Under the pieces are notes generated by a model. The model worked only from the letters and a program-made list of their open reading frames with translations, was not told where the DNA came from and ran no database searches. From Bacteroidales bacterium (GTDB lineage: Bacteria; Bacteroidota; Bacteroidia; Bacteroidales; UBA10428), in contig JAFGPB010000068.1 in the NCBI GenBank assembly GCA_016926205.1, positions 1-36,174 of the forward strand: a stretch of DNA of 36,174 nucleotides, written 5' to 3'. Positions 1-1,502 of this stretch are shown one piece after another. The translations under genes and the position numbers were made by a program. The number at the start of each line of letters is the position of its first letter. Positions within the stretch are counted from its first letter, which is position 1.

Positions 1-65
1 CTGACCGGAGTATTGAGGTCCGAAAGCATTTTTCTGACGTTTGTCGTAATGTTAAAATCCCGCAT
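1..65 (-). CDS. trpE: Anthranilate synthase component I, N-terminal fragment (runs off window)
   Basis: Only the first 21 codons are in the window, read leftwards from an ATG at 63-65. The peptide contains TNVRKMLSDLNTPV. This resembles the start of Bacteroidota TrpE, where a K-x-L-L-A/S-D-x-x-TPV segment precedes the tryptophan-binding part of the chorismate-utilising enzyme. TrpE makes anthranilate from chorismate and glutamine-derived ammonia, the first step of tryptophan synthesis. The identification would be weak from 21 residues alone. It is strongly supported by the leader immediately upstream, which encodes a peptide with three consecutive Trp codons followed by a terminator-like hairpin. 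No in-frame ATG lies further upstream. A plus-strand frame over the same bases (stop at 78-80) is the main alternative reading. Confidence 0.62.
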   Translation of the reverse strand, partial: MRDFNITTNVRKMLSDLNTPV

Positions 66-96
66 CTTATGATTAATTGACGATGTTTATAAAACC

Positions 97-171
97 ACAG
101 CGGCCTATCGTGAGAACGACAGGCCGCTGTTTTATATCTTTTTTATATACAAAAAGGTGCGGGTCTCACGA
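97..171 (-). promoter_or_regulatory. Trp attenuator: terminator hairpin and competing antiterminator
   Basis: On the minus strand a perfect 10-bp stem ACAGCGGCCT / AGGCCGCTGT (130-121 with 106-97) encloses a 14-base loop. It is followed by GG and a short T-rich tract (TTTTAT), 32 bases before the trpE ATG. Upstream, TCGTGAGA (171-164, overlapping the leader stop codon) is perfectly complementary to TCTCACGA in the loop (115-108). CCGC (162-159) can pair with GCGG in the 5' arm of the stem (127-124). This alternative fold cannot coexist with the terminator stem. The logic fits attenuation: with enough Trp the ribosome covers the upstream arm and the terminator forms; with little Trp it stalls at TGGTGGTGG and the antiterminator forms. 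The U tract is short, so terminator strength is uncertain. Confidence 0.65.
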
Positions 172-222
172 ATTGATGAGAAATTTCAAGCACCACCACC
201 AGATTGTATATATTCTGTTCAT
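166..222 (-). CDS. trpL: Trp leader peptide with three consecutive Trp codons
   Basis: An 18-codon reading frame, ATG at 220-222 and TGA at 166-168, encodes MNRIYTIWWWCLKFLINS. Three tandem TGG codons (193-201) in so short a peptide are very unlikely by chance and are the hallmark of a leader peptide that senses charged tRNA-Trp. The frame starts about 23 bases after a TAnnTTTG promoter element and is followed by the hairpin at 97-130 and then the trpE start at 65. The stop codon lies inside the left arm of the proposed antiterminator, so a ribosome reaching the stop would block antiterminator pairing. One stalled at the Trp codons would leave that arm free. The peptide itself is probably not functional as a protein. 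Confidence 0.72.
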   Translation of the reverse strand: MNRIYTIWWWCLKFLINS

Positions 223-244
223 TTTGTTCTTTTTTACATGGACA

Positions 245-252
245 CAAAAATA
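245..252 (-). promoter_or_regulatory. Candidate -7 element for the trp leader
   Basis: TATTTTTG on the minus strand matches the Bacteroidota -7 consensus TAnnTTTG exactly. It lies between the clpX stop and the leader-peptide ATG (222), giving a short 5' leader of about 15 bases. A TTG occurs upstream (268-266), but its spacing of 13 bases is shorter than the usual 17-23, so the -33 part is weak. Confidence 0.5.
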
Positions 253-278: not shown

Positions 279-1502
279 TCAGGCAGCTTTTAGTTGCTGA
301 AGCTTAATTTTTTCGATCTTCGATTTTGCGTATTCAAGTGTTATCCTGATTTCATTCTGTCCGGTGGACGGAAGTTCAAACATAACATCAATCATGACTG
401 CTTCACAAATGGAACGGAGTCCCCTTGCACCCAGCTTGAATTCCACAGCCTTGGTCACAATATAATCAAGCGCCTTTTCATCAAAAGTGAGTTCGATTCC
501 ATCAATCTCAAACAATTTGATATACTGTTTGATGATTGAATTTTTCGGTTCCGTTAAGATCATGCGCAAAGCTTTGGGATCCAAAGGGTGCAGATATGTC
601 AGCACAGGCAGCCTGCCGATGATTTCGGGGATCATCCCGTATGACCGCAGATCCTGTGGAGCGATGTACTGCATCAGGTTGTCGCGTTCTATCCGGTCGG
701 ACTGCCTCGAGGCATTGTATCCCACAACCTTGGTATTCAACCGCTGCGCTATCTTCTTTTCGATTCCATCAAAAGCTCCTCCGCAGATAAAAAGTATATT
801 GCGTGTGTCCACGGCAATCATTTTCTGATCCGGATGCTTTCGTCCGCCCTGAGGAGGAACATTCACCACGGATCCTTCAAGGAGTTTCAGCAATCCCTGC
901 TGAACACCCTCACCCGACACGTCACGTGTAATCGATGGGTTATCTCCTTTTCGTGCAATTTTATCGATCTCGTCAATAAAGACAATGCCCTTTTCTGCAG
1001 CTTCGACATTATAATCGGCCACCTGCAGCAAACGCGTCAGGATGCTTTCAATATCTTCACCGACATATCCTGCCTCGGTAAGCACCGTTGCATCCACAAT
1101 GGTGAAAGGAACATGCAACAATTTGGCTATTGTCCTGGCCAGTAATGTTTTTCCGGTACCTGTCTCTCCGACCAGTATAATGTTGGACTTTTCAATCTCC
1201 ACGTCATCGGCTGACTCATATTTTGTCGCCTGAACAAGCCGTTTATAATGATTGTAAACAGCCACAGAGATGTGTTTCTTGGCGTCATCCTGACCAATTA
1301 CGTAGAGATCCAGAAATTTCTTTATCTCCTTGGGCTTAAGAAGCTTGATCGTATTAACATCGAACTGCTGACTTTTTTTGACCTCTTCCTGGACGATTGC
1401 ATATGCCTGTTCCACGCATGAATCGCAGATATGTCCCGATATCCCCGCGATGAGAAGGTTTGTATCTCGTTTGTCACGTCCGCAAAAGGAACACTTGTCC
1501 AT
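279..1502 (-). CDS. clpX: ATP-dependent Clp protease ATP-binding subunit ClpX
   Basis: ClpX is the AAA+ unfoldase that recognises tagged substrates, unfolds them and feeds them to ClpP in the cytoplasm. The 407-residue protein has the N-terminal zinc-binding domain with four cysteines (CSFC at 4-7 and CDSC at 26-29), the Walker A motif GETGTGKT and the Walker B motif [10 protein letters not shown]-terminal small AAA+ lid domain follows. Length is normal for the family. It lies downstream of clpP on the same strand with an 80-base gap that carries its own candidate promoter (1555-1562), so it may be transcribed both with tig-clpP and alone. Downstream of its stop a weak 4-bp stem (CAGC/GCTG) near 284-301 precedes a run of T on the minus strand; it is too weak to call as a terminator. 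Confidence 0.97.

Follow-up and report, generated by a model that had tools for sequence, protein, structure and literature searches.

In the trp leader of E. coli (trpL), the antiterminator takes the 5' arm of the terminator. Among Bacteroidota, a tryptophan peptide leader RNA of Bacteroidetes has been catalogued as Rfam family RF01692 (Bacteroid-trp; Weinberg et al. 2010, PMC2864571). An element of this family lies upstream of the trp operon in Flavobacterium psychrophilum (2019 study, PMC6414381), and a 2021 transcriptome of the same species gave hints of attenuation by leader peptides ahead of amino-acid operons (PMC9723704). The literature searched contained no experimental work on trp attenuation in Bacteroidota. 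Here we analysed a 36,174-nucleotide contig of a Bacteroidales bacterium (hereafter the window, meaning this whole stretch), in which an initial annotation had described a complete trp attenuator. With RF01692 already catalogued, the lineage is not one in which such attenuators were unknown. The regulator type is known, and what is modestly new is the portion of the terminator with which the antiterminator is predicted to pair.

The leader and its promoter lie on the minus strand. An open reading frame of 18 codons plus TGA (MNRIYTIWWWCLKFLINS, 222-166) contains three tandem TGG codons at 201-193, which would serve as the Trp control codons, and closes with its stop codon at 168-166. A short reading frame with tandem codons for the amino acid made by its operon is characteristic of ribosome-mediated transcription attenuators, and the WWW of the window is conserved as a run of 2-4 W in relatives. 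A TAnnTTTG -7 promoter motif (TATTTTTG, 252-245) stands 22 nt upstream of the leader ATG. Both frame and motif had been described in the initial annotation and are present exactly as described, and the motif is also enriched among Bacteroidia trp leaders, being found in 56 of 75 as against 8.3 expected from shuffles.

Downstream of the leader, a gene starting with ATG at 65 (MRDFNITTNVRKMLSDLNTPV..., 65-1, minus strand) runs off the contig and resumes on another contig of the same genome, C79. A profile search of the genome's contigs gave a sole TrpE match, beginning at base 7 of C79 and at model position 18, and its first residues (YPNSLLLESSDYHAA) carry on the frame of the window after a gap of ~9 residues, as estimated against a same-genus protein (MRIINITTNIRKMLSDLNTPVSIYLRIRDVYPNSLLLESSDYHAA). 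Beyond the remainder of trpE, C79 continues with trpG, trpD, trpC, trpF, trpB, and trpA. The identity of this trpE-like gene had been made the test of the attenuator reading from the start, and the gene is trpE, at the head of a full trp operon.

Between the leader and trpE lies a terminator-type hairpin (130-97, minus strand), whose position is conserved in all leaders and whose 15-bp stem, with 14 Watson-Crick pairs and one G-U, carries the 4-nt loop UCUC. A hairpin had been placed here with a perfect 10-bp stem; its location holds, while the stem is longer and not perfect. Folding of the minus-strand leader, proposed at the same time as a check, gave -52.3 kcal/mol for 240-62 compared with an average of -31.1 for shuffled sequences (z = -5.4), so that the leader is more stable than its shuffled counterparts. 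Attenuators are further marked by an intrinsic terminator that separates the leader from the first gene, although the tail in the window (GGUUUUAU, 96-89) is only a short and weak U-tract, GGTTTTAT, as compared to the longer tracts of most relatives. The same tail is common to the window and its nearest relative (locus L023) and is weaker than in other genera, and termination may be less efficient in this subclade. In one same-genus locus (L008), ~200 nt are inserted between terminator and trpE.

The weak U-tract in these two genomes, together with a hairpin that stops 31 nt short of the trpE start, could be taken to mean that the leader controls trpE translation or the stability of the mRNA, with the hairpin merely a stable stem in the 5' UTR. 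We consider this improbable, given that a classical U-run directly follows the same hairpin in most relatives and that in folding the trpE start region lies outside the hairpin. A transcription terminator, weak in its tail in the window and canonical in most relatives, is the reading that we prefer.

For the same layout we surveyed trpE loci of relatives and, more widely, of the order, the class, and the phylum; a locus was counted when its leader had two or more Trp codons in a stretch of four and a terminator-like hairpin came after it. The layout was found upstream of trpE, or of trpB in trpB-first operons, in 75/78 Bacteroidia loci, including 20 of 21 in the family (the window among them), 34 of 36 in the order, and all 21 of the class sample; the conserved TGG runs anticipated for related leaders are borne out by the same loci, each with its run of W. 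Elsewhere in the phylum it was seen in 16 of 33 sampled loci, and in none of 30 control loci from a further phylum genome set (mostly one family). In six Bacteroidales operons that start with trpB (L092-L097), the leader was upstream of trpB in every case, and so stays at the front of the operon under a changed trp gene order. Ribosome-type trp attenuation would accordingly be close to universal in tryptophan-making Bacteroidia.

The upstream neighbour of the leader is clpX (NCBIfam clpX; 279-1502, minus strand), and the C-terminus of clpX is also found upstream of the leader in several family members. With clpX ending just upstream at 279, the hairpin might by coincidence be the clpX terminator and the WWW frame untranslated. 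This explanation has to contend with a promoter motif and leader lying between clpX and the hairpin, with a layout kept where the upstream gene differs or where trpB comes first, and with a match to RF01692, and we regard it as exceedingly unlikely. As the sole explanation of the hairpin, a clpX terminator is contradicted by the conservation of the layout.

At the gathering threshold, the Rfam search returned only a tRNA in the window, with no match to the Rfam Trp_leader model. On a relaxed search, RF01692 was matched over the whole model (1-131) with 45.7 bits (E 2.1e-4), below the gathering cut-off of 49. A same-genus leader (L007) also remained below it at 47.3 bits, while 12 other Bacteroidota leaders passed, among them leaders from related genomes of the same class, with relatives reaching up to 76 bits. 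The features that define RF01692 are present in the window, namely a place upstream of trp biosynthesis genes in Bacteroidota and a Trp-rich leader peptide with a conserved hairpin around it. We read the window as a true RF01692 member that falls just under a cut-off which misses most of its family. Taken together, the leader is very probably a ribosome-mediated transcription attenuator of a trpEGDCFBA operon and a member of the Bacteroid-trp leader family.

Attenuators of this type also have a conserved alternative fold in competition with the terminator, and we identified a candidate pairing of this kind between two segments of the minus strand. The predicted left arm of the antiterminator, S1 (UCGUGAGA, 171-164), holds the leader stop codon, and the predicted right arm, R1 (UCUCACGA, 115-108), consists of the terminator loop and the 4 nt that open the 3' arm. 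In the window they form 8 bp, TCGTGAGA with TCTCACGA (p = 0.004). P-values were obtained by dinucleotide shuffling with contiguous helices scored; whole-terminator duplex energies were dropped as noisy, as long GC-rich arms pair by chance. The pairing was significant (p<=0.05) in 51 of 75 Bacteroidia leaders (family 17/20, order 19/34, class 15/21), with about one third of leaders lacking a significant S1:R1, and the leader stop codon was overlapped by S1 in 43 of the 75. The initial annotation had already described the 8-bp pairing over the stop codon in the window. These shuffle p-values count related genomes as independent, such that combined values overstate the case, and retention of the pairing through sequence change is the better evidence.

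Across the Bacteroidia leaders, S1:R1 occurs as 30 different arm pairs, several of them unrelated in sequence (e.g. UGCUGUGUUAAGC/GCUUAACACAGCA, GAUGAACA/UGUUCAUC, and GAGAGGU/ACCUCUC). Where the loop is unusual, a leader's own loop is often, though not always, the best or near-best partner among the 75 loops. This complementarity across divergent sequences is a direct observation, and it indicates that S1:R1 is conserved by compensatory change across the trp leaders of class Bacteroidia. Covariation of both folds in relatives had been proposed as a check, the antiterminator having been annotated with 4 additional pairs reaching into the 5' arm of the terminator. For the S1:R1 pairing the check is borne out by the 30 arm pairs; the extension (CCGC at 162-159 with GCGG at 127-124) exists in the window, but reached p<0.05 in none of the 75 Bacteroidia leaders. 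In no group did these 4 pairs rise above chance, and we discarded them.

A second pairing flanks the Trp codons. Segment A (UAUAUACAA, 212-204), just 5' of the codons, pairs (p = 0.018 in the window) with segment B (UUGUAUAUA, 152-144), downstream of the leader stop and part of the RF01692 consensus structure, and the resulting hairpin encloses the stop-codon arm S1. A:B was supported at p<0.05 in 13 of 20 family members and was significant in all three Bacteroidia groups (family, order, and class).

From this anatomy we infer a mechanism on the classical model, which is also our guide for termination, read-through, ribosome stalling and positions, and the direction of each switch. When Trp is plentiful, the ribosome would pass WWW and reach the stop codon inside S1, whereby S1 is covered, the hairpin at 130-97 forms, and transcription ends. 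When charged tRNA-Trp is scarce, the ribosome would stall on WWW, cover segment A, and break the A:B hairpin; S1, now exposed, could bind R1 (the loop and the beginning of the 3' arm) at the moment of its synthesis, and the terminator would come too late to keep RNA polymerase from continuing into trpE. If the leader is not translated, S1 would stay enclosed by A:B and the terminator would form by default. In folding computed for a ribosome stalled at the Trp codons, the lowest energy belongs to S1:R1 at the point where R1 has just been transcribed; this fold gives way to the terminator as synthesis of the 3' arm finishes. Antitermination in this scheme must be kinetic, a matter of timing, because the terminator is far more stable at equilibrium (-36.6 kcal/mol in the window vs. 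-19.8 for the nested antiterminator).

The classical 1:2/2:3/3:4 layout, which places the right arm of the antiterminator within the 5' arm of the terminator, was not what we found, R1 being composed of loop and 3' arm. Among Bacteroidia trp leaders, the centre of R1 lies ~2 nt 3' of the hairpin axis (median offset +2), and the initial suggestion is borne out that the antiterminator relies for the most part on the loop of the terminator and not on its 5' arm, an R1 made up of the loop and the upper 3' arm being conserved in the family. In trp leaders from outside Bacteroidia, the arm is mostly in the 5' arm (5/7 significant cases). The comparison of these layouts is suggestive only (significant cases alone; p = 0.08, n = 7 outside cases), and hints that outside Bacteroidia most trp leaders follow E. 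coli in using the 5' arm.

Leaders of other amino-acid operons provide a further comparison. Of the ilvD upstream regions examined (L182-L211), 23/30 have a short reading frame with an Ile/Leu/Val run of at least 4 and then a terminator. In these ilvD leaders of related Bacteroidales genomes, pairing with the terminator 5' arm was significant in 22/23, with the arm centre 6.5 nt 5' of the hairpin axis (median offset -6.5 nt) and the stop codon inside the antiterminator arm in 20. Most relatives also have His-run leader peptides and a terminator upstream of hisG (L152-L181), including the window's own genome (L178, MKERFPHNHNHRP); only 5 of 25 his leaders showed a significant antiterminator pairing, and their geometry was mixed. 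The ilv leaders rule out an unusual layout general to the lineage. A lineage-specific design, as had been surmised, thus holds for Bacteroidia trp leaders and fails as a rule of the lineage, since the ilv leaders use the 5'-arm layout. The loop and 3'-arm layout appears to belong to the trp leader of Bacteroidia.

The position of R1 bears on how the antiterminator could work. Because R1 leaves 7-18 terminator pairs free (median 10), the lower stem could still form alongside S1:R1, giving a pseudoknot too bulky or slow to release the transcript. In the window, the lower stem keeps 11 bp in folding from which S1 and R1 are withheld, and the pairing of the ilv leaders with the 5' arm makes the two geometries distinct, both of which lend something to this idea; simple kinetic competition nevertheless accounts for the same data, and we regard pseudoknot formation as possible but somewhat doubtful. 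More broadly, we tentatively propose, with confidence a little short of even, that Bacteroidia trp leaders have a loop-capture antiterminator that spares the lower stem, perhaps in a pseudoknotted form, is distinct from the ilv 5'-arm type, and is kept class-wide by compensatory change.

With E. coli trpL, the window shares Trp codons in a short leader, an anti-antiterminator hairpin, an antiterminator, a terminator, and trpE downstream. The trpL-type attenuation logic put forward at the outset is well supported by this comparative evidence and stands upstream of a true trp operon, its function being proposed by analogy. The window differs from trpL in the predicted target of its antiterminator, here the loop with the upper 3' arm, and in a left arm that holds the leader stop codon. 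The predicted trp attenuators of Actinobacteria (PMC1262725) resemble the window in their double or triple UGG codons, terminator, and antiterminator, but belong to another phylum and have other conserved pairing triples. RF01692 shares with the window its place before trp genes, the Trp codon run, the A:B hairpin, and the terminator start; the model stops within the terminator 5' arm, before the loop, and so describes neither the terminator nor S1:R1, both of which the present analysis adds. RF01692 is below its cut-off on most of the window's own family, and a model including the terminator would widen its reach. Finally, the ilvD leaders of related Bacteroidales have in common with the window their regulatory codons, a stop codon inside the antiterminator arm, and a terminator, and differ from the Bacteroidia trp leaders in setting the antiterminator on the 5' arm rather than on the loop and 3' arm. 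Two antiterminator geometries in related genomes, trp and ilv, therefore offer a natural comparison for asking whether capture of the loop and descending arm can defeat a terminator.
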